Assembly (NCBI GenBank): GCA_024244705.1
Contig: JAAEOK010000119.1
Location: 1-49,426 of the forward strand
Source of the DNA: Alphaproteobacteria bacterium
GTDB taxonomy: Bacteria > Pseudomonadota > Alphaproteobacteria > JAAEOK01
DNA length: 49,426 nt
Direction of reading: 5' to 3'
Shown here: piece after piece, positions 3,155 to 45,885 of the stretch
How positions within the stretch are numbered: position 1 is the first letter of the stretch
Layout: every line of letters starts with the position of its first letter
The notes under the pieces: generated by a model
The model's database searches: none
What the model saw: only the letters and a program-made list of their open reading frames with translations
Told to the model about the DNA's origin: nothing
Made by a program: the position numbers and the translations under genes

Positions 3155-6007
3155 CTAGTTTCGCTCGGATGGTGTGTTTGGTGGCTTATTCTCGGTCGCA
3201 AGAACCCGCCAATCTGGCCAAGCGGCGGGGTCCAGGAGGAGATGGGACTCAAGACAAGCGACGAAGCGCTGCATGAGTAGGTGTGTCGCGGCGGCATGGT
3301 CGGTCGCGCCGTCGACCTCGAGGGGCGGATAGGCGACGACCCGGAAGTGGCGGTCGCCGTCGCGCAAGACAAATACCGGGATCAAAGCGGCGCCGGTTGA
3401 AAGGGCCAGCCGTGGCGGCCCCGTCGCGATCGTGATGCGGCCATCGAAGAAGGGTAGCTCGGTTGGCCTATCGGAGTGGAACCTAGCGTTGATAGACACG
3501 ATCCCATTCCGGCCGAGCAGCTGCCGGACCTGCTCGACGGACTGCTGTCCGTCGCCCGCGACGAAGATGCGGTCGCCGCGCAGGGACCCCTCCCACTCGC
3601 GCGACATACGGTTGAGGCCGAATTGGCCGACCCTAGTGGTCGAAAATCCGTATTGCGGACGCGCGAGGGTGGTCGCTCGAAAGCTGGCCTCTTTCAAGGC
3701 GACTCGGGTCGCCAAGGCACCGGAATAAAGCGGTGCCCGCCACAGGATAACCCCCCTGCCCCGGTTTAGCCCGGCGTCGATATGAACACGACCTTCGAGG
3801 GCAGCCGTCGGCGAGTCGACGTCGCTGGACCAGCCGTTCAATCGTAGGAGCAACTCCTCGAAAAAGTTTGCCATGCCTTCTGTGACCAGCGCCCGAGGCG
3901 GCAAATCGCGCGACCGGTTTCCAAGGACCCGACCGATCGCCTCCATCTTGGTCCGTGTGCTCCGTCGCCGAGCCGACGTGGCGAGCTTGGCGAGAGCTCG
4001 CAAGGTGTTCCTTGTTCGCTGTTTTGGAGATAGTCGGTCCGCGATGCCCAGCACAAGCAAGAGGGAAGGCGTAATCAGATCGTGGATGTCTATGGTCTTG
4101 GCCGGAATCGAATAACCTATGCGCGGGTCTGGTGCGGCGCTTGGTGATTTCTCGTCGACACCGGGCAACGACCCGCGGACGAGATCGGCGAGTTCCGCGA
4201 CCGTGCCGGCCCGCGACCAGATCACATCGGCATTCAATCTCACGCCCCACTTCTCTTCGATCGCGACGACAAGCTCGATCGACGTTAAAGAATCCGCGCC
4301 AAGGCCGATGATATCGTCGTCGATTCCAACCGGCGTGGCGTCAAGCAAATCCTCCAAGAGCTCGACGAGCGCATATTCGATTTCATCCCGTGGCCGGCCC
4401 TCGTGCCGAGCCGGCGCTTCGACACTGGGCGTGCGCGCCGCCAAGGCACGGCGGTCGATCTTGGCGCTCGCCGTGCGCGGCAACGAATCGAGGCGGACCA
4501 GCCTGGTCGGGATCATTGCCTGGGTCAGCCTCTCGCTCAATTTTGCGCGAATCTCGCGGACCGTTGGGGCACCGACATGGCTGACGTAATAGGCGGCCAA
4601 CCGGTCGGGGTTACCGCCTTCGGCATGGGGCTCCACAACCGCCGCCACTTCGTCGATCCCGTCCAGGTCGAGCAAGGCGGCCTCGATATCGGAAATTTCG
4701 ACTCGATTGCCGAGCACCCTGACCCGGTCGTCCGTACGGCCGGCCAACCGCAAGCATCCGTCATCTGCCATGACCCCCAGGTCGCCGGTTCGGTAAAGGC
4801 GTTCGTCGGTGCCCTCCAGGGATAGAAAAGCCTGTGCCGTAAGATCGGGCCGTTTCCAATATCCCTTTGCCAGATAACGGCTCTTGATTACGATCTCGCC
4901 AATCTCTCCGGCCGGAACATCATGCCCGCCCTCGTCGCGCAATAGCAGTTCCATACCGTCCACCGGGTATCCGACCGGCACGGCGCCATCGCTCAAGATC
5001 CTGGACCGGTCGATGAAATGCCGCCGGTAGGTCCCGGCCTCGTTACAGGCGACTTGATTGATCAGGGTGTCGCTGTTGGGAAAGCGGCGCTTCCACAAAT
5101 CGACATCGGACCGATAGACCGGATCGCTCGTCAGAACCACGGTACGGACCGTGGCACATTGGTTGCCGTCGGGAATCCCCGCCAATGCCCGGCGCATCAC
5201 GTTGACCGGGATCAGACAGATCGTTACCCCTCGCGTGCCCAGCCACGTGAACAAACCGGCTGTGCCTTTTCTCCTGATATCCCATGGGCAAAGGGTCGCG
5301 CCGCTGAGCAGGGCGGCGAGGATGACCCGCACGCTCGCCATGGTGCTGACATGGCGAACAAGTAACACTCCGTCGTCCGGCCTCATTCCGCACGCGACGG
5401 CAAAATAGCCAGCGCGGGCAAGGAAACTGCGATGGGATTGAACGACTCCCTTCGGGCTCCCGGTGCTGCCGGACGTATAGTAAATCGCGGCCACGGTGTC
5501 GGGCGACAGAACGACATCGGGATCGTGAATGGGCGCCGCCGATTTCAGCTCGTCGATATTCACCACACGGCAGGTGCTCGGAATGACGGCGGGTACCGCC
5601 GCCGCGTTGCGTTTATCCGTAAGACATAGGCTCACCTCCGCGTGACGGGCGATGTCCGCATTGCGCCGTGAAGGATGATCGGGGTCCAAGGACACATAAA
5701 TGCGGCCCATCCTCAACAGCGCCAAGGCGCCGGCGATGAACGGCGCGCCGTGCTCAAGGAAGAGCGCGACGGCGCCGGTCCCTGCGGCCTGATCCTGTCG
5801 CACCCGATGGGCGATTCGGTTAGCCCACAGGTTGAGGTCTCGATAAGTGACGTCGCCCTCCGGATCGGCTACTGCGATACGGTCCGCAAACGCTTCCAGC
5901 CGCGGATCCAGGCACTCCGGAACGCTGGCCTCGAATCCGGTTTGCGTCAGTTGCTCGATGTTTGCCGTTCCGCATTGCGGTGGCGGACTGTCCCTGGTGT
6001 CCAACAT
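3155..6007 (-). CDS. adenylation-carrier-LpxL-like acyltransferase fusion protein
   Basis: A 950-residue, three-part protein. Residues ~20-525 form an AMP-binding adenylation domain: YYTSGSTGSPKG (177-188) is the ATP loop, YRTGDLG (405-411) binds adenosine and ribose, and Lys516 in RTASAKIDRR is the catalytic lysine. Residues ~540-612 form a carrier domain with LGADSL; Ser573 would carry phosphopantetheine. Residues ~740-930 resemble LpxL/HtrB lipid acyltransferases (LPFFDGRITIATGPPRLAL at 851-869). It therefore probably activates an acid, loads it on its own carrier and passes it to a lipid or other acceptor. Oddities: the HX4(D/E) catalytic pair appears replaced by Pro759 and Ala764, and the A4 motif has Met223 where NRPS domains have the Asp that binds an alpha-amino group. 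There is no condensation or thioesterase domain. The start ATG is at 6007. Confidence 0.8.
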   Translation of the reverse strand: MLDTRDSPPPQCGTANIEQLTQTGFEASVPECLDPRLEAFADRIAVADPEGDVTYRDLNLWANRIAHRVRQDQAAGTGAVALFLEHGAPFIAGALALLRMGRIYVSLDPDHPSRRNADIARHAEVSLCLTDKRNAAAVPAVIPSTCRVVNIDELKSAAPIHDPDVVLSPDTVAAIYYTSGSTGSPKGVVQSHRSFLARAGYFAVACGMRPDDGVLLVRHVSTMASVRVILAALLSGATLCPWDIRRKGTAGLFTWLGTRGVTICLIPVNVMRRALAGIPDGNQCATVRTVVLTSDPVYRSDVDLWKRRFPNSDTLINQVACNEAGTYRRHFIDRSRILSDGAVPVGYPVDGMELLLRDEGGHDVPAGEIGEIVIKSRYLAKGYWKRPDLTAQAFLSLEGTDERLYRTGDLGVMADDGCLRLAGRTDDRVRVLGNRVEISDIEAALLDLDGIDEVAAVVEPHAEGGNPDRLAAYYVSHVGAPTVREIRAKLSERLTQAMIPTRLVRLDSLPRTASAKIDRRALAARTPSVEAPARHEGRPRDEIEYALVELLEDLLDATPVGIDDDIIGLGADSLTSIELVVAIEEKWGVRLNADVIWSRAGTVAELADLVRGSLPGVDEKSPSAAPDPRIGYSIPAKTIDIHDLITPSLLLVLGIADRLSPKQRTRNTLRALAKLATSARRRSTRTKMEAIGRVLGNRSRDLPPRALVTEGMANFFEELLLRLNGWSSDVDSPTAALEGRVHIDAGLNRGRGVILWRAPLYSGALATRVALKEASFRATTLARPQYGFSTTRVGQFGLNRMSREWEGSLRGDRIFVAGDGQQSVEQVRQLLGRNGIVSINARFHSDRPTELPFFDGRITIATGPPRLALSTGAALIPVFVLRDGDRHFRVVAYPPLEVDGATDHAAATHLLMQRFVACLESHLLLDPAAWPDWRVLATENKPPNTPSERN

Positions 6008-6903: not shown

Positions 6904-6951
6904 ATGTTGATCTAATTCAATATGTTAGCACGTGATTCACGGCTCACTTCG
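6863..6951. repeat. palindromic repeat-like element overlapping a gene end
   Basis: The perfect arms CGTTTCAG (6874-6881) and CTGAAACG (6893-6900) surround an 11-base loop, and a shorter palindrome CGTGA-T-TCACG follows near 6931-6941. The style (AGAGCA start, GATCG-TTTCAG, CTAATTCAAT, then GTGATTCACG) resembles short interspersed palindromic units I know from alphaproteobacterial genomes. It supplies the stop codon and tail of the GNAT protein. Only one copy is in the window, so repetition is inferred. Confidence 0.45.
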
Positions 6952-7040
6952 TTGCGACGAGAGCCGACCACGCCCTAGACTCGGAACAGGGCTGGGAAGC
7001 CGCCGCCCCGAATTCGCTTGAATCTCCCAAACGGCGATCA

Positions 7041-7067
7041 AAAAAATGGCCCCGCCGGTTGCGGGGC
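7041..7067 (-). terminator. intrinsic terminator after the Flp pilin gene
   Basis: On the minus strand, GCCCCGC (7067-7061) pairs with GCGGGGC (7055-7049) around a 5-base loop and is followed by CA and a T run (7046-7041). It lies 70 bases past the stop codon of the pilin gene, exactly where a terminator is expected. Confidence 0.85.
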
Positions 7068-7137
7068 TATTCTCTCGTTGGTGGAGTCGCAGTTACTCAA
7101 TCGTTCTTCGCCTAACCCCACTACTGTCGGCGAATTG

Positions 7138-7320
7138 TCACTCGGCGCCGGACCCAAAGGGACCCGCAAACCAAGCGAGCGATTCGAACACACCCATGAA
7201 TGTTGAACCGATGGCTCCGAGCATGGCGACACCGGTGAGCGATACGAGCATCAGCACCGCCCCAACTTCGATCGTCGTCAGGCCCGTCTCATCTTGCAGC
7301 AACCCCGAATTCCAACCCAT
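7138..7320 (-). CDS. Flp/Fap-type pilin subunit (orphan)
   Basis: A 60-residue prepilin. After a short leader (MGWNSGLLQDETG) comes LTTIEVG and a hydrophobic stretch (AVLMLVSLTGVAMLGAIGS). Prepilin peptidase would cut after Gly13, leaving Glu18 at +5, the signature of type IVb Flp pilins; the residue after Glu is Val where Tyr is usual. Starting at the ATG at 7320 places GAGGGG nine bases upstream, better than the TTG at 7329. It would assemble into Tad pili for adhesion. No tad/cpa assembly genes are present in the window, so they must lie elsewhere. A consensus CtrA box sits upstream, as for pilA of Caulobacter, and a terminator follows. Confidence 0.78.
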   Translation of the reverse strand: MGWNSGLLQDETGLTTIEVGAVLMLVSLTGVAMLGAIGSTFMGVFESLAWFAGPFGSGAE

Positions 7321-7402
7321 CGTAACCAACCCCTCGTTGACCCAAACATACGCGGCTAATGCGATGTGTCGCGCATCTGCATCATGAAAATGCGGGAGTC
7401 AA

Positions 7403-7417
7403 TTAAAAAAACATTAA
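7403..7417. promoter_or_regulatory. consensus CtrA box upstream of the Flp pilin
   Basis: TTAA-N7-TTAA, a full match to the CtrA consensus, lies 83-97 bases upstream of the pilin start codon. On the minus strand a TTGACT element directly follows it, so the box would sit at or just above the -35 position, as at CtrA-activated promoters. The surrounding 7395-7450 is markedly AT-rich. Confidence 0.6.
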
Positions 7418-7590
7418 TATTCAATGATTTAATAAAATTTTCCTGAATATTTAGCTAACCAATATTGGGAAAAGGATTGGTAACCATAGTCTCGTTGTAG
7501 TGCGGAATTTGGCGGCCAGGCGTTCGGGCCGAAGCTTTAGAAACGGCACCGACCCATCCCAAGCCGCTCGCCCATCCGCGATTTCGACCG

Positions 7591-7818
7591 GAAAGAAAAA
7601 CCCCGCCGAAGCGGGGTCAAGTCGTTGGAGGCATAAGACGATGTAAGGTTGTCGTTATCTGTTCAAGAGACGCCACATCTAAACAATTACAATTACTACA
7701 TTAAGGGAATGGCGAAATGGAGTTCGCCAGGGCAACGGCGAAAGCCCGTTATTGCCCTATAAAGCGATGCCGATTCACGCAACCGGTCGTATCGACGGAC
7801 TTCGAACGGCGGCATCGC
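7591..7818 (-). ncRNA. candidate structured small RNA (about 228 nt)
   Basis: No convincing protein is encoded here, but the minus strand has all parts of an RNA gene. In order: the 5' stem GCGATGCCG/CGGCATCGC (7818-7810 with 7772-7764, nine perfect pairs, with an inner hairpin); a second stem AGGGCAA/TTGCCCT (7758-7752 with 7735-7729) capped by a smaller hairpin; a third stem TGGCGAA/TTCGCCA (7729-7723 with 7716-7710) whose loop reads CTCCAT; and an intrinsic terminator at 7617-7595. The second and third stems share position 7729. A promoter-like pair at 7854-7825 predicts a start near 7818. The exposed CUCC loop could pair with Shine-Dalgarno sequences, as in many alphaproteobacterial regulatory RNAs. 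It matches no family I can name. Confidence 0.5.
7595..7617 (-). terminator. intrinsic terminator of the candidate small RNA
   Basis: On the minus strand ACCCCGC, the loop TTCG and GCGGGGT (7617-7600) form a perfect seven-pair stem with a stable tetraloop, followed by a T run (7600-7596). No protein gene ends before it on this strand, which is a main reason for proposing an RNA gene here. Confidence 0.85.
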
Positions 7819-7824
7819 CTGGTC

Positions 7825-7854
7825 ATATTCCCTGGTCCCATTGAGTGCGATCAA
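7825..7854 (-). promoter_or_regulatory. possible promoter of the candidate small RNA
   Basis: On the minus strand TTGATC (7854-7849), an 18-base spacer and GAATAT (7830-7825) would give a transcript starting about 7818, the first base of the long 5' stem. The agreement of promoter and stem positions supports both; each alone is weak. Confidence 0.4.
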
Positions 7855-7887
7855 TTCGTCCTTCGCCACCAATGTCGCAGTGGTTTC

Positions 7888-7902
7888 TTAACAATGGGTT
7901 AA
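7888..7902. promoter_or_regulatory. consensus CtrA box near the candidate small RNA
   Basis: A second perfect TTAA-N7-TTAA lies about 70-84 bases upstream of the predicted RNA start. The motif is nearly symmetric, so it could serve either strand; no rightward gene begins nearby. Confidence 0.45.
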
Positions 7903-8273
7903 CACGAATAGTTTTAGCCAAATTTTGCAAAAATGAACCGTAAAGGGCCGCTATTAAGGAAGTCTTAGGGGTATTTCGGATCCGGCGAGTTTTGTTGCCG
8001 TTTCGATCATGGTTAACCGTTCACTAACAATTCATGAACATTTCGTGAATCCACCCCCGGTAACACGTTGATATTCCGTAATTTCTATATTTAGAAAAAT
8101 TCTTTTCGTTGCGCTGGCGCAGATTAGCCGAGGCTGTCCCGCCTCGTCCGATCGATAAATTTGGTCGCTGTTCAAAATCGGACGGTTTGAATCCGATTTG
8201 CCACCAGATCAAACGCCATGACCGTCCCGCTCAGCACACGGGTCGGGGCGCCCAGGGATGGCTCAGGCCCAAT
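7903..8273. other. AT-rich intergenic region with a near-CtrA site
   Basis: No convincing gene is seen. TTAA-N7-CTAA at 8013-8027 misses the CtrA consensus by one base. Possible open frames here lack ribosome sites and protein-like composition. The region lies downstream of the CBS gene. Confidence 0.4.
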
Positions 8274-8702
8274 TTACATCGCAATATACTGACGGAGAGC
8301 CTCGGCCTCATTCTTGAGTTCGGTCAATCTTGCTTTTACGACATCGCCAATGCTGATGATCCCTTTCAATCGGCCATCGACGATAATCGGCAGGTGGCGA
8401 ATCCTGTTGTCAGTCATAACCTCCATGCATTCGTCGATGCTGTCATCGGGAGCGCACGCGGTCACCGATTTGGTCATAAGGTCCGCAACCGTCATGTCCA
8501 TCAGCGAATTGCCGTGATCGACCAGACTCCGGACAATATCCCGTTCGGACAATATGCCGTCCATGGTTTCGCCGTCGTCACTCACGACTAGGGCTCCGAC
8601 ACCAACGGATTTCAGCATTGCGAGGGCCTGCCCGATCGTCGAATCCGCCTTGATAAACGCGACGTCATCACCCTTGGACTGAAGAACTTTGTCTACATTC
8701 AT
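8274..8702 (-). CDS. two-CBS-domain protein
   Basis: A 142-residue protein made only of a CBS pair (Bateman module). The first repeat runs about residues 10-65 (FIKADSTIGQALAMLKSVGVGALVVSDDG...GILSERDIVRSL), the second about 75-130 (MTKSVTACAPDDSIDECMEVMTDNRIRHLPIIVDGRLKGIISIGDVVKA). Such modules bind adenine nucleotides or S-adenosylmethionine and sense energy state or partner proteins. The start MNVDKVLQ is preceded by GGAGACAGG; the longer reading upstream has no CBS sequence. It is similar in build to short CBS proteins common in alphaproteobacteria. Its partner is unknown. Confidence 0.88.
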   Translation of the reverse strand: MNVDKVLQSKGDDVAFIKADSTIGQALAMLKSVGVGALVVSDDGETMDGILSERDIVRSLVDHGNSLMDMTVADLMTKSVTACAPDDSIDECMEVMTDNRIRHLPIIVDGRLKGIISIGDVVKARLTELKNEAEALRQYIAM

Positions 8703-8870
8703 GCCCTGTCTCCATTTGTCACAGCCCGTAATGCCGGTAAGACCATGGTATTCGAATTCTGGCATGCGAGCAGGAGCCGTATTGCCATATTCTGCCATAA
8801 TTGGTGGAAAATTGCACGCCGATGGCAATCCTAGAAACGGGTCAAGGTGGTGATCGGGCCCCCGCTCCCA

Positions 8871-29170: not shown

Positions 29171-30052
29171 ATGATATCCGACTCCACCGGTAATAGACCC
29201 GCCGGCACCGCACCTGATCGAGAGGCGCTAGAGCATGTCCGCCGCATCACCAAGGCGTCGGGGACGTCATTCTTTTGGGCCATGCGATTGCTCACCGAAA
29301 GGCGGCGCGATGCCATGTTCGCCATTTACGCGTTCTGCCGGGAGATCGACGATATCGCCGACGAGGAGGCGCCCACGGCCGACAAGATTACCCGGTTGAA
29401 CGCATGGCGTGATGAGATTGACCGGCTCTACGAGGGCCAACCCAGATTCCCAATCTCACGCGCTCTGGCCGGACCGCTTTCCGACTACAATCTCGAAAAG
29501 GCCGATTTTCTGGCATTGATCGAAGGCATGGAAATGGACGCAACCCGAACGGTATGCGCCCCCACCATGGCCGAGTTGGAATATTACTGCGATCGCGTCG
29601 CCTGCGCCGTCGGACGGTTGTCGGTTAAGGCCTTTGGCGCGACTGAACCCGAGGCCGTAGACGTTGCATTCGCGCTCGGTCAGGCACTGCAACTTACGAA
29701 TATCCTAAGAGACCCCCTCGAGGACGCGGAACGGGATCGCCTGTATCTGCCGTCCGAGCTCTTGCTGAAACACGGGATTGGGTCGCGGGACCCGCGTACG
29801 GTCCTATCCCACCCTAGTTTGCCCGATGTCTGTCGGGATTTGGCCGACGTCGCCGATCGAAGATTCGACGAGGCCGATGCGGCTTTAGCAAAATGCGCCC
29901 GCCAACCCATGCGGCCGGCGATCGTCATGAAGGAGATTTACCATCGTTATCTCGAAAAACTCATGGCCGGCGGCTGGCGAGACCTGAGTTACCGAGGGTC
30001 CCTGTCCGGGCCGGAGAAGTTGTGGATTGGATTGCGGTACGGATTGCTTTAG
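29171..30052 (+). CDS. hpnD: presqualene diphosphate synthase HpnD
   Basis: A 293-residue enzyme that condenses two farnesyl diphosphates to presqualene diphosphate. ASGTSFFWAMRLLTERRRDAMFAIYAFCREIDDIADE contains the first Asp-rich motif, and LQLTNILRDPLEDAERDRLYLP contains the second. The YAFCR block is HpnD-like and separates it from HpnC. The ribosome site before the ATG at 29171 is weak. The hpnE start follows 14 bases after the stop, so the two are likely cotranscribed. Confidence 0.93.
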   Translation: MISDSTGNRPAGTAPDREALEHVRRITKASGTSFFWAMRLLTERRRDAMFAIYAFCREIDDIADEEAPTADKITRLNAWRDEIDRLYEGQPRFPISRALAGPLSDYNLEKADFLALIEGMEMDATRTVCAPTMAELEYYCDRVACAVGRLSVKAFGATEPEAVDVAFALGQALQLTNILRDPLEDAERDRLYLPSELLLKHGIGSRDPRTVLSHPSLPDVCRDLADVADRRFDEADAALAKCARQPMRPAIVMKEIYHRYLEKLMAGGWRDLSYRGSLSGPEKLWIGLRYGLL

Positions 30053-30066
30053 CGGGCTGCTGATCG

Positions 30067-31323
30067 ATGACCAGGGTCCACATCATTGGTGCCGGTTTGG
30101 CCGGACTTGCAGCCGCAACCCGGTTGTCTCGTCACGGCCATGACGTCACGGTCTATGAGGCGGCGGGGCACGCCGGCGGGCGCTGCCGGTCCTACCACGA
30201 TGACGTACTCGGCATTGAAATCGACAACGGCAACCACCTGCTGCTCAGCGGCAATCATGCCGCGATGGACTTCCTCGACGAGGTCGGTAGTCGCGGGACC
30301 CTCTTCGCGAGTGAACGCGCGGCGTTTCCCTTCGTGGACTTCGCCGACGACGCGAGATGGACCATCCGCCCCAACCGGGGCCGCCTTCCATGGTGGGTGT
30401 TGTCGCCGCGCATGCGCGTGCCGAATACGACCGCGGCCGATTATTTCCGCGCCTTGCGATTACGAAGTGTCGACGAAAATGAGACCGTTGCCGAGGTTTT
30501 CGATCCGCAACAACCCTCATTCCGGCGATTTTGGGAACCGCTGACGGTTGCCATCCTGAACGCGCGCGCGGACGAGGCGGCGGCGTCCCTGCTATGGCCC
30601 GTACTTAAGGAGACCTTCGGTCGCGGCGAACAGGCTTGCCGAGCCTGCATCGCTCGAACCGGGCTGTCCAATAGCTTTGCGAGGCCTGCGGTTTCGGCGC
30701 TCAAATCTCGCGGACGGGCCGTTCATTTCAATGCCCGCCTCCGCGAGGTCGAGAAAACGGAGAATCGGCTCGGCACTCTGAGGTTTTCGAAAGAAGACAT
30801 CGAAGTTACCGGCGGCGATAGCGTCATTCTTGCCGTTACACCCTCGGTCGCGGCCTCTCTGCTTCCTGACCTGACTGTGCCGGTCGGGAGCCGCTCCATT
30901 GCCAATGCTCATTTTCACCTGGAAGACGACGCGCTGTCGCTCAACGACATTCCCTTCCTCGGCATCATCGGCGGCACCGCTGAATGGCTTTTTGTACGGG
31001 ATCGCGTTGTCTCTGTCACCGTAAGCGCTGCCGAGCATGTCATTGATTTGGATGGTGAAAGTCTGGCCACGCGCCTTTGGAATGATGTCACCCGCGCGCT
31101 CGACCTGGTGGACATGGCAATTCCGCCCTATCGGATCGTCAAGGAAAAGCGCGCAACTTTCGCCCAGACGCCGTCGAACATCGGTCGCCGGCCGGGGCCG
31201 GTTACCGCGCTGAGCAACGTGTTTCTCGCCGGCGACTGGACAAATACTGGGTTGCCGGCAACCATCGAGGGCGCCATCCGCAGCGGCAATGCCGCAGCCG
31301 TGGCGGTGATCGCAAAAACTTGA
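30067..31323 (+). CDS. hpnE: hydroxysqualene dehydroxylase HpnE
   Basis: A 418-residue FAD enzyme of the desaturase-amine oxidase type that reduces hydroxysqualene to squalene, the last of the three steps begun by HpnD and HpnC. VHIIGAGLAGLAAATRLSRHGHDVTVYEA is the N-terminal dinucleotide fold, followed by GGRCRSYHDD, and VFLAGDWTNTGLPATIEGAIRSGNAAA is the closing FAD motif. Length and motifs are complete. It is directly followed by shc, so substrate flow matches gene order. Confidence 0.93.
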   Translation: MTRVHIIGAGLAGLAAATRLSRHGHDVTVYEAAGHAGGRCRSYHDDVLGIEIDNGNHLLLSGNHAAMDFLDEVGSRGTLFASERAAFPFVDFADDARWTIRPNRGRLPWWVLSPRMRVPNTTAADYFRALRLRSVDENETVAEVFDPQQPSFRRFWEPLTVAILNARADEAAASLLWPVLKETFGRGEQACRACIARTGLSNSFARPAVSALKSRGRAVHFNARLREVEKTENRLGTLRFSKEDIEVTGGDSVILAVTPSVAASLLPDLTVPVGSRSIANAHFHLEDDALSLNDIPFLGIIGGTAEWLFVRDRVVSVTVSAAEHVIDLDGESLATRLWNDVTRALDLVDMAIPPYRIVKEKRATFAQTPSNIGRRPGPVTALSNVFLAGDWTNTGLPATIEGAIRSGNAAAVAVIAKT

Positions 31324-31362
31324 TGAAATCCTTGATTTTGCGGCCAAATATAGGCACATAGG

Positions 31363-33396
31363 ATGATCGTGAAGGGGTCATTGGCGACTGAAGGCGCCGA
31401 TGGGGACAATTATGACCTATTATCAGGGATGACAGCGTTGGCGATGCAAAGCGCAGCGGCCTATGAAGCAATGCGCCGCCCTGCGGACGATCTGGATTCG
31501 GTCGACCGGACTGTCGCCGAGGTTCGATCGGCATTCCATGATATCCAAGCTTCGGATGGACATTGGCTCTATGAGCTTGAGGCGGATGCGACGATTCCAT
31601 CCGAATACGTCATGCTTGAGCACTATCTCGACGAAATCGACGATGCGCTCGAGCACAAGATTGCGGTCTACCTGCGCGACGGCCAAGGCGAGCACGGCGG
31701 GTGGCCCTTGTTCTATGGCGGTGACTTCAATATCAGCGCGACCGTGAAGGCCTACTACGCACTCAAGCTTATCGGCGATGACATCGACGCCCCGCATATG
31801 CGGCGGGCCCGGGAAGCCGTGCTGGCACGGGGCGGGGCCGCACGCGCCAATGTCTTCACGCGCTTTGCCCTCGCCCTGTTCGATCAGATCCCGTGGTGCG
31901 GCACGCCGGTGATGCCGGTGGAAATCATGCACCTGCCGAGCTGGTTCCCGTTCCACCTCGATAAGGTCTCATATTGGTCACGAGCGGTGATCGCCCCGTT
32001 GCTCGTGCTCACCGCGCTCAAACCCAAGGCTCGAAACCCGCGCGGCATTCACATTCAAGAGTTGTTCGTCACGCCGCCCGCAGAGGAGAAGACCTGGAAC
32101 CTCAATCCGACCGGCGCCTGGGTCGGCGAGTTCTTCCTGCTGCTCGATCGTGCATTGCAGAAAGTCGAGCCGCATTTCCCGAAGGGGCCAAGAAAAAGAG
32201 CAATCCAGAAGGCAGTGGATTTCTTCGCCGAACGCCTCAACGGCGAGGATGGCCTCGGCGCCATCTACCCGGCGATGGCCAACAGCGTCATGGCCCTTGA
32301 TGCCCTCGGCTATCCCAAGGATCACCCAGACCTCATCATTGCGAAGAAATCGATCAAGAATCTGCTCGTTGAATTCGAAGACCGCGCCTATTGCCAACCT
32401 TGTGTGTCGCCGATTTGGGACACCTCCCTCGCCGCCCATGCAATGTTGGAGGCGGGCGACAGTGGACGCGGCGACGCCACCGGACGCGCGCTCGATTGGC
32501 TCAGAGATCGTCAAATACTGGATGTGGTTGGCGACTGGGCCGCGCAGCGCCCCGATCTGCGACCGGGCGGCTGGGCGTTTCAGTATTGGAATGATCACTA
32601 CCCTGATGTCGATGACTCGGCTGTGGTGGCGCTCGCGCTGCACCGTGCCGACCCCGATCGCTACAAGGAATCGATCGACCGCGCTGCCGAATGGGTGCTC
32701 GGCATGCAGTCTGCAAATGGGGGCTGGGGCGCGTTCGATGCAGATAACGAACACTACAAGCTCAATTCTATTCCGTTTGCCGACCACGGGGCGCTTCTCG
32801 ATCCGCCGACCTCCGATGTGACGGCACGCTGCTTGGGCATGCTGGCGCAGCTCGGCTATACACGCGACCATCCCGCCGTGGCCAAGGCGGTCGACTTCCT
32901 GATACGCGAACAGGAAGAGGATGGATCATGGTTCGGCAGATGGGGCACCAACTACGTTTATGGGACCTGGTCTGTTCTTTGCGCCTTGAACGCGATCGGC
33001 GAGGACCCCAACCAGCCCTATCTTCAAAAGACGATCGCCTGGCTGCGCGGCCAACAGGGCGAGGACGGCGGCTGGGGCGAGGACGGCGCCACCTATTGGG
33101 CAGATCGGCGAGGGGATTGCAAGGAGAGCACGCCGTCGCAGACCGCCTGGGCGCTGATGGCGCTGATGGCAATGGGTGAAGTCGATAGCGAGACGGTAAA
33201 ACGCGGCGTCGATTTCCTCATGACGGCACCCCGACAAGGCACCAAGTGGGACGAGCAATGGTACACCGCGGTCGGATTCCCGCGGGTGTTCTATCTCCGC
33301 TACCATGGCTACAGCGCGTACTTCCCACTGTGGGCGTTGGCCCGTTATCGCAACCTTCGCCGGGCGAACGATAAGTCGGTCGCCTACGGCATGTAG
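31363..33396 (+). CDS. shc: squalene-hopene cyclase
   Basis: A 677-residue monotopic membrane enzyme that folds squalene into hopene (diploptene) and diplopterol. The acid motif DVDD (Asp415, Asp417, Asp418) starts the cyclisation, and several QW repeats are visible (for example QSANGGWGAFD, EEDGSWFGRWG, GEDGGWGED). The WFPFHLDKVSYWSR segment is part of the membrane channel region. The start ATG at 31363 gives a slightly long N-terminus; start codons further in are possible. Also called hpnF. It is the key gene of the locus and appears fully functional. Confidence 0.97.
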   Translation: MIVKGSLATEGADGDNYDLLSGMTALAMQSAAAYEAMRRPADDLDSVDRTVAEVRSAFHDIQASDGHWLYELEADATIPSEYVMLEHYLDEIDDALEHKIAVYLRDGQGEHGGWPLFYGGDFNISATVKAYYALKLIGDDIDAPHMRRAREAVLARGGAARANVFTRFALALFDQIPWCGTPVMPVEIMHLPSWFPFHLDKVSYWSRAVIAPLLVLTALKPKARNPRGIHIQELFVTPPAEEKTWNLNPTGAWVGEFFLLLDRALQKVEPHFPKGPRKRAIQKAVDFFAERLNGEDGLGAIYPAMANSVMALDALGYPKDHPDLIIAKKSIKNLLVEFEDRAYCQPCVSPIWDTSLAAHAMLEAGDSGRGDATGRALDWLRDRQILDVVGDWAAQRPDLRPGGWAFQYWNDHYPDVDDSAVVALALHRADPDRYKESIDRAAEWVLGMQSANGGWGAFDADNEHYKLNSIPFADHGALLDPPTSDVTARCLGMLAQLGYTRDHPAVAKAVDFLIREQEEDGSWFGRWGTNYVYGTWSVLCALNAIGEDPNQPYLQKTIAWLRGQQGEDGGWGEDGATYWADRRGDCKESTPSQTAWALMALMAMGEVDSETVKRGVDFLMTAPRQGTKWDEQWYTAVGFPRVFYLRYHGYSAYFPLWALARYRNLRRANDKSVAYGM

Positions 33397-33422
33397 CAAC
33401 CTACCGTCCGCCTCGATCGGTC

Positions 33423-34106
33423 ATGAATATCGGTGTCATCACCGGTATGGTTATCGAGGCTCGTTGTTTCGGCGCGGAACCCGCAAATTTAACGATCGAA
33501 GTCACCGGCGCGGACCGAAACCGTACCCGTGACGCATGCCAGAAACTGTGCCGGGCAGGTGTAGAATCGCTGCTGAGTTTCGGGTTGGCCGGCGGTCTAG
33601 ACCCCAGGTTCGAACCGGGTGACCTCATCATTGCCGATTCGGTGATCGGAAGTGGTGGCGCGCGACACGAAACCGAATCGCGATGCCGTCCCATATTGTC
33701 CGCAAACGCCAAGGGTATATTGCCCTATCAGATTGCGCCCATCATCGGCAGCGCGGTGGCAATTCGGACAAAGGAAGAAAAGGCCGAGCTCTACCGCAAG
33801 TACGGCGCCGCCGCGGTCGATATGGAGAGCGACATCGTCGCCGAAATGGCAACCGCTTCGAGCTTGCCGTTCGTGGTCGTGCGAGCGGTGGCGGATGCAG
33901 CCGACTGTCAGGTTCCCGATGCGGCGATCGTTGGTCTTGGCGAAGATGGAAGAACCCGGCCGTTTTCGGTCATGGGATCACTGATCACCCGCCCAAGCGA
34001 GCTGTTACCGCTCATCAAACTGGCCTTGGGAACGCGGCGTGCACTGGCCGCCCTGCGGCTCGCCGCGCCACTTATTCAGGAAGCGATGCGCACTCCGGAA
34101 GGGTGA
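33423..34106 (+). CDS. hpnG: adenosylhopane nucleosidase/phosphorylase HpnG
   Basis: A 227-residue member of the purine nucleoside phosphorylase fold. HpnG removes adenine from adenosylhopane, giving ribosylhopane or its phosphate, the next step in making bacteriohopanetetrol-type side chains. NIGVITGMVIEARCFG opens the fold, LLSFGLAGGLDPRFEPGDLIIADSV is the central block, and AAVDMESDIVAEMA contains the substrate-binding MES motif. It follows shc by 26 bases and ends facing hpnH. Confidence 0.92.
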   Translation: MNIGVITGMVIEARCFGAEPANLTIEVTGADRNRTRDACQKLCRAGVESLLSFGLAGGLDPRFEPGDLIIADSVIGSGGARHETESRCRPILSANAKGILPYQIAPIIGSAVAIRTKEEKAELYRKYGAAAVDMESDIVAEMATASSLPFVVVRAVADAADCQVPDAAIVGLGEDGRTRPFSVMGSLITRPSELLPLIKLALGTRRALAALRLAAPLIQEAMRTPEG

Positions 34107-45763: not shown

Positions 45764-45885
45764 GTCGTGGGCAAGTCGCAACGGGTCTGGAATACGTTGC
45801 ATTGCCCTATCCGCCGACATCAAGATCGGGCCCTTCGAGCACCGATGATGAAATTCGGTGTTTCGGCAGATAGGCTCTTTCCGCA

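Follow-up and report, generated by a model that had tools for sequence, protein, structure and literature searches.

Three described small RNAs come closest to the candidate considered here. CcnA, from Caulobacter crescentus, is a structured noncoding RNA, proposed to be driven by CtrA, whose C-rich loop pairs with G-rich sites in 5' UTRs, as presented in PMC8959179. EcpR1, from Sinorhizobium meliloti, is about 101 nt in length and comprises two stem-loops and a putative Rho-independent terminator; its gene lies downstream of divK-pleD, it belongs to the stringent-response regulon, and it has a conserved loop, UCCGCCGCAUCU, according to the features given in PMC4414408. GspR, also from Sinorhizobium, is 143 nt long and targets ctrA and cspA5 (as described in PMC5928217). 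The CtrA consensus is TTAA-N7-TTAA, and the pilA promoter of C. crescentus, as outlined in PMC11264516, has a CtrA site at -35 together with more CtrA sites upstream.

The locus examined here is part of an alphaproteobacterial genome of 4.5 Mb, assembled in 127 contigs and 96.7% complete. ‘The window’ refers to the whole stretch of DNA that was analysed, contig C119, of 49,426 bases. Among the best 80 of 356 relatives, which are Azospirillaceae and other Rhodospirillales, no glutamine synthetase shares more than 71% identity with that of this organism, and the CBS-domain protein encoded beside the candidate RNA is at most 55% identical to its class counterparts among the matches listed; the source is thus an isolated alphaproteobacterium, its class being read from the names of these relatives. 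The candidate occupies the gap 7339–8273, and is flanked by the CBS-domain gene and a pilin-like gene, all on the minus strand. The original prediction, of a structured small RNA of undescribed family at 7591–7818, is partly supported by our analysis; transcription and function are what we infer from it. Judged by sequence, an orphan sRNA gene is credible here, with a better regulatory context, and a weaker start site, than that prediction had given it. The locus as a whole is best explained as an orphan minus-strand sRNA unit whose expression would be set by CtrA and which would act by anti-Shine-Dalgarno pairing, a reading whose chances we put slightly better than even.

Hairpins, linker and terminator

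Three hairpins open the candidate RNA. Hairpin 1 (7764–7818, minus strand) has a perfect nine-pair outer stem that encloses inner stems of five and six pairs (z -2.47; 2 of 200 shuffles as good). The outer stem, formed by 7764–7772 and 7810–7818, is exact and 100% complementary, as had been claimed. Hairpin 2 (7729–7758, minus strand) is composed of an eight-pair stem, a bulge and a three-pair inner stem; folding of 7728–7758 (z -3.15, 0 of 200 shuffles) reproduces the shape of the two-part stem described previously at 7758–7729. Hairpin 3 (7711–7728, minus strand) displays CUCCAU (7722–7717) in its loop, just as proposed, although folding gives its stem six pairs rather than seven (7711–7730 folded: z -4.19, 0 of 200 shuffles). 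Folded as one minus-strand piece, 7709–7820 has a z of -3.93, with none of 200 shuffles equally stable, and the full 228 nt has a z of -2.82, with one of 200 equally good. The plus strand of the same 7709–7820 stretch also folds well (z -3.26); the minus strand is favoured nevertheless, because the T-run of the terminator points in that direction.

How exceptional this fold is can be gauged from 1172 windows in 138 intergenic stretches (449 kb) of the same genome, hand-chosen from a crude gene map and with the present window included. Twenty of these match the extremity of the 7709–7820 fold when 25 shuffles are used for each. When the 74 lowest windows, target included, are re-scored with 200 shuffles, 14, from 10 places, stand above the target. 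With 14–20 of the 1172 (about the top 1–2%) folding comparably, the fold is unusual, not unique. Within the window, the minus-strand segments 308–419, 6904–7015 and 45764–45875 outrank the candidate in folding (z -4.38, -4.08 and -4.15, respectively), and the first of these contains a 19-pair hairpin that adjoins tRNA genes. Elsewhere in the genome, L195:7991–8102 (G000:C85:87991–88102) is a very stable, long intergenic hairpin, good on both strands (z -5.6 to -6.0), which reaches the gathering score of no Rfam family.

An A+U-rich, unstructured linker (7619–7708, minus strand) follows the hairpins; folded as 7618–7708, it has a z of +1.08. It includes CCUCC at 7631–7627, an element absent from the original prediction and unpaired in folds of the linker. 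The RNA would end at an intrinsic terminator (7593–7618, minus strand), found by terminator scan and classed as an orphan from the gene map. This consists of GACCCCGC-TTCG-GCGGGGTT, at 7618–7599, and then TTTCTTT, and is present as had been stated. No protein gene ends at it: the crude gene map has no ORF end within 200 nt upstream, and, going upstream on the same strand, the first ORF end is reached after 655 nt. In a census, four of nine terminators were orphans, a count that is only rough because the crude ORF caller masked true sites, the pilin's among them.

The 5' start is less secure. The promoter-like pair proposed to specify it, TTGATC-N18-GAATAT, agrees at seven of 12 positions, which is the level of chance: 301 nt hold 13 pairs at 7/12 and none at 8, whereas mono-nucleotide shuffles average 18.2, and the promoter scan returned no pair at 9/12. 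A start at about 7818, at the first stem, therefore loses its promoter support and depends on folding. Extending the fold upstream to 7858 (38 nt more) weakens z to -1.75, and the 68 nt upstream (7819–7886) are, alone, not structured (z -1.15); both fit a structure whose edge lies near 7820.

CtrA-type boxes and the pilin-like gene

The consensus CtrA box said to lie upstream of the RNA is present, as an exact TTAA-N7-TTAA, TTAACAATGGGTTAA(C), at 7888–7902. It precedes the first stem by 69 nt, and is not at the -35 position of a 7818 start. Two more boxes had been missed: a near match with one mismatch, TTAGTGAACGGTTAAC on the minus strand, found at 8012–8028 by a one-mismatch scan, and a second exact TTAA-N7-TTAA box at 7403–7417, before the pilin-like gene. 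The two exact boxes are the only ones in the whole window and both occur in the gap; the number expected is 0.09, and none of 100 shuffles has two. Local shuffles of the gap, which is A+T-richer, give P 0.0008 (5000 shuffles). Allowing one mismatch to TTAA-N7-TTAAC, all six matches in the window, at three places, fall within 7402–8028, a number reached by three of 100 whole-window shuffles and by none of 1000 gap shuffles.

CtrA is encoded in the genome (413.7 bits; family cut-off 350), and a one-mismatch box precedes the longest ctrA ORF by 42 nt. Hfq is encoded, too (111.7 bits). With a TTAA-N7-TTAA box upstream and a CtrA protein to bind it, the candidate is probably a member of the predicted CtrA regulon. 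GcrA found no match in the genome (96.7% complete), so that the ‘cell-cycle control’ put forward originally may not apply as it does in Caulobacter; in this organism CtrA may have a role in pili or motility. One point against CtrA control is that, genome-wide, boxes are not in excess over a reversed-pattern control (28 versus 35 strand matches), nor is a shorter pattern (51 versus 92 per strand). Of 51 box places, 34 are on contig C103, a tally for the box pattern and not for the control. The fuller form, TTAAC-N6-TTAAC, accounts by hand count for nine of the 17 boxes outside C103 and for none on it. Nine sampled pieces of C103 are 22–28% G+C, compared with 54–64% in other box-bearing pieces, and this contig is probably a contaminant of the assembly. 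Ten proteins encoded near other boxes, at eight loci, include two sensor kinases; the others are mixed, and none is flagellar. On contig C32, five TTAA-N7-TTAA boxes crowd into about 100 bp, partly in two near-identical repeats (G000:C32:96138–96240; L132:1501–1603), between enoyl-CoA hydratase-like and homogentisate-dioxygenase-like genes; this cluster might be a hub for CtrA or an element of a replication origin.

The gene downstream of the candidate RNA (7138–7320, minus strand) encodes a divergent Flp/Fap-type pilin-like protein of 60 aa. Its match to PF04964 (16.7 bits, E 0.0065) is below the cut-off of 32.2, and we therefore term it pilin-like, membership of the Flp/Fap family not being confirmed. 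Its box is 82 nt before the ATG, directly abutted by a minus-strand, -35-like TTGACT (7402–7397), and it has its own terminator-like site at 7067–7049. Elsewhere in the genome, three Flp matches exceed the cut-off, and their loci, of about 3 kb each, are devoid of exact boxes; the strongest match does have a pair of one-mismatch boxes, of which the closer is about 170 nt upstream. Having a box and a terminator-like site of its own, the pilin-like gene can be taken as its own unit. The two boxes farther upstream would thus serve something else, and the RNA is the only candidate seen there.

The CBS-domain gene on the other side (8274–8699, minus strand; PF00571, E 3.1e-24, scanned as 8274–8828) has an uncertain start, and ends 455 nt ahead of hairpin 1. 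Farther off in the window, the minus strand of 3155–6007 encodes a 950-aa protein with an unusual combination of an AMP-binding domain, a carrier-protein site and a partial lipid A acyltransferase-like domain, and 29171–34106 appears, by eye, to be a hopanoid-like cluster (squalene synthase-like, desaturase-like and squalene-hopene cyclase genes).

Families, relatives and targets

The RNA was predicted to be of an undescribed family, and this agrees with a covariance scan of Rfam 15, in which no family attains its gathering score at the locus. Over the whole window, only three tRNAs do so. The best match at the locus is to RF02278 (20.7 bits; gathering score 50). The suhB/MmgR family (RF00519) matches weakly (14.6 bits against a gathering score of 41, E 3.7) at 7585–7651, which is the end of the linker plus the terminator.

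Relatives were looked for as DNA, with a 420 bp query, in 40 related genomes and the source genome itself, and then in a class set of 385 genomes, which includes the source and no other member of its order, with two candidates scored per genome. Neither search yielded a homologue. The matches that arose were mainly to the generic terminator (query 344–369); others were short, 20–45 nt, most often at query 142–164 and 90–114, and we judged these to be chance. Six plasmid records match, all at the terminator only, as do the eight listed of 153 phage records. Viral contigs, searched with one pattern, contained one exact match of 18 nt, which scored only 13.6 bits with the covariance model and was rejected. 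That model, built from the single sequence, found itself alone in the 385 class genomes under strict filters; the next best match, at 23.6 bits, is by eye a tRNA-arm-like stretch. Applied to 80 loci from Rhodospirillales and others—the best 80 of 356 relatives by glutamine synthetase, at 71% identity or below—it scored at most 19.7 bits, and revealed no homologue. Nor did these loci have a pilin match at E 1e-5. The CBS protein, used earlier as a query for collecting relatives, found nothing. Without a homologue in what was searched, the structure could be a young one, or could be due to chance.

Both CUCC and CCUCC complement Shine-Dalgarno sequences, and so a block to translation is the simplest guess at what the RNA would do. 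Duplex energies over 405 start regions, calculated simply and with crude gene starts, show no preference for the pilin-like, ctrA or CBS genes, which rank 131, 364 and 189, respectively, for the loop, and 124, 111 and 159 for the linker. A search of the open-access literature found nothing on CtrA and small RNAs in Rhodospirillales, which does not imply absence from print.

Alternative readings and comparison with known systems

Thirteen ORFs are listed in the gap; eight of these, one in a shorter form, and one nested ORF were scored for coding potential against 136 gene pieces. Eight ORF forms of 25–62 aa score below every one of the gene pieces, and one ORF of 160 aa, which runs antisense to the CBS gene, outscores a single piece. 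A Pfam scan of eight gap ORFs gave no match. The scored ORFs look non-coding. A small protein gene could fill the stretch as a 58-aa ORF (7696–7872) or a 25-aa ORF (7749–7826), since both frames are open and have third-position G+C of 0.63 and 0.62, respectively, yet both are among the low-scoring forms and the small ORFs that lack Pfam matches, and 43% of 143 intergenic ORFs equal or beat the first and 97% the second. NCBIfam has no match for the 58-aa ORF, either; matches to it at E <= 0.1 occur in 16 other genomes of the 385, fewer than the 38 or so that sound E-values would predict, and the strongest of them (E 0.0015) is interrupted by two stops. We regard a protein gene here as barely conceivable. 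Transcription might instead continue from the CBS gene for about 655 nt to the terminator at 7618–7599, in which case any RNA would be a by-product, or would be an sRNA processed from the 3' UTR. The CBS gene is on the same strand, and a scan of 7000–8300 detected no other terminator-like site between its stop and 7618. A 3' UTR of this length would be unusually long, however; CtrA-type boxes intervene between the CBS gene and the RNA; and 7901–8011 is unstructured (z +0.91), all of which leads us to think this origin unlikely.

The RNA might, alternatively, be the leader of the Flp-pilin mRNA, in which the terminator would work as an attenuator, since the pilin-like gene is next downstream on the same strand and CtrA-type boxes precede both. 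Against this, that gene has its own box, abutting TTGACT and terminator-like site, its ATG is about 270 nt from the terminator, and no antiterminator stood out in general folds of 7591–7650 or 7591–7818; an attenuated leader appears distinctly improbable. Chance could also have placed intergenic hairpins beside an unrelated terminator, with no functional RNA at all. That 1–2% of the genome's intergenic windows fold equally well, that the promoter is at chance level, and that no conservation is detectable in the genomes searched all fit such an accident, while the co-occurrence of boxes (P 0.0008), three hairpins and orphan terminator, in order on one strand, speaks against it, and we consider it quite unlikely.

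Returning to the orphan sRNA, we envisage the gap 7339–8273 as an independent minus-strand noncoding unit of roughly 230–280 nt, whose RNA would start between about 7870 and 7818 and finish near 7593, at the orphan terminator. In sequence, the unit has the anatomy of a trans-acting sRNA, with three stable hairpins at its 5' end and an unstructured, A+U-rich linker that leads to the terminator, and the molecule would presumably retain this anatomy in life. CtrA probably binds the boxes at 7888–7902 and 8012–8028, and so would set expression of the RNA; by binding at 7403–7417 it would drive expression of the Flp-type pilin next door. The RNA would most likely act by pairing its exposed loop, CUCCAU, and its single-stranded CCUCC with purine-rich ribosome-binding sites on the mRNAs it targets; Hfq, which is encoded, may assist. 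A bolder possibility, which we rate as rather unlikely, is a CtrA-controlled RNA–pilin module in this isolated order: CtrA would switch on an orphan Flp-type pilin and an sRNA of no described family through separate boxes, and the two anti-Shine-Dalgarno segments would add a post-transcriptional arm to the control of pili or surface life, in a genome where GcrA was not found. For the present, the orphan sRNA is an ordinary sort of sRNA prediction, and a reasonable one, to which the clustering of CtrA-type boxes lends strength.

The arrangement before the pilin-like gene, a box with an abutting TTGACT, resembles that of Caulobacter pilA, which has a CtrA site at -35 (as outlined in PMC11264516). 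The extra sites of pilA, which reduce and delay its expression, are within about 160 bp of the first, judging from the spacings given there; here, unlike pilA, the extra boxes precede the pilin's box by about 470 and 595 bp, past the terminator and in front of the RNA. Like EcpR1, the candidate combines stem-loops with a terminator, and EcpR1 is a trans-acting sRNA whose exposed loop pairs at the start regions of its targets (in the features given in PMC4414408); the conserved EcpR1 loop, UCCGCCGCAUCU, is absent from the 228-nt sequence. Like CcnA, the candidate would be a structured noncoding RNA with proposed CtrA control and a C-rich loop (as presented in PMC8959179). The loop of CcnA is CCCC, its gene is at the replication origin, and its targets include ctrA and gcrA, whereas the loop here is CUCCAU and no gcrA was found (the same description of CcnA, PMC8959179). 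The two were compared by features, not sequence: CCCC occurs only in the terminator stem, and GcrA has no match. GspR, compared by description only, shares three stem-loops, restriction to a lineage and the lack of a known promoter signature before the 5' end; it is 143 nt long and has no pilin link among the features described in PMC5928217. If the orphan sRNA is real, then a lineage-specific RNA joins the few CtrA-tied ones met here, CcnA and GspR, from outside Caulobacterales and Rhizobiales, and a CtrA-tied sRNA is placed beside a pilin gene.
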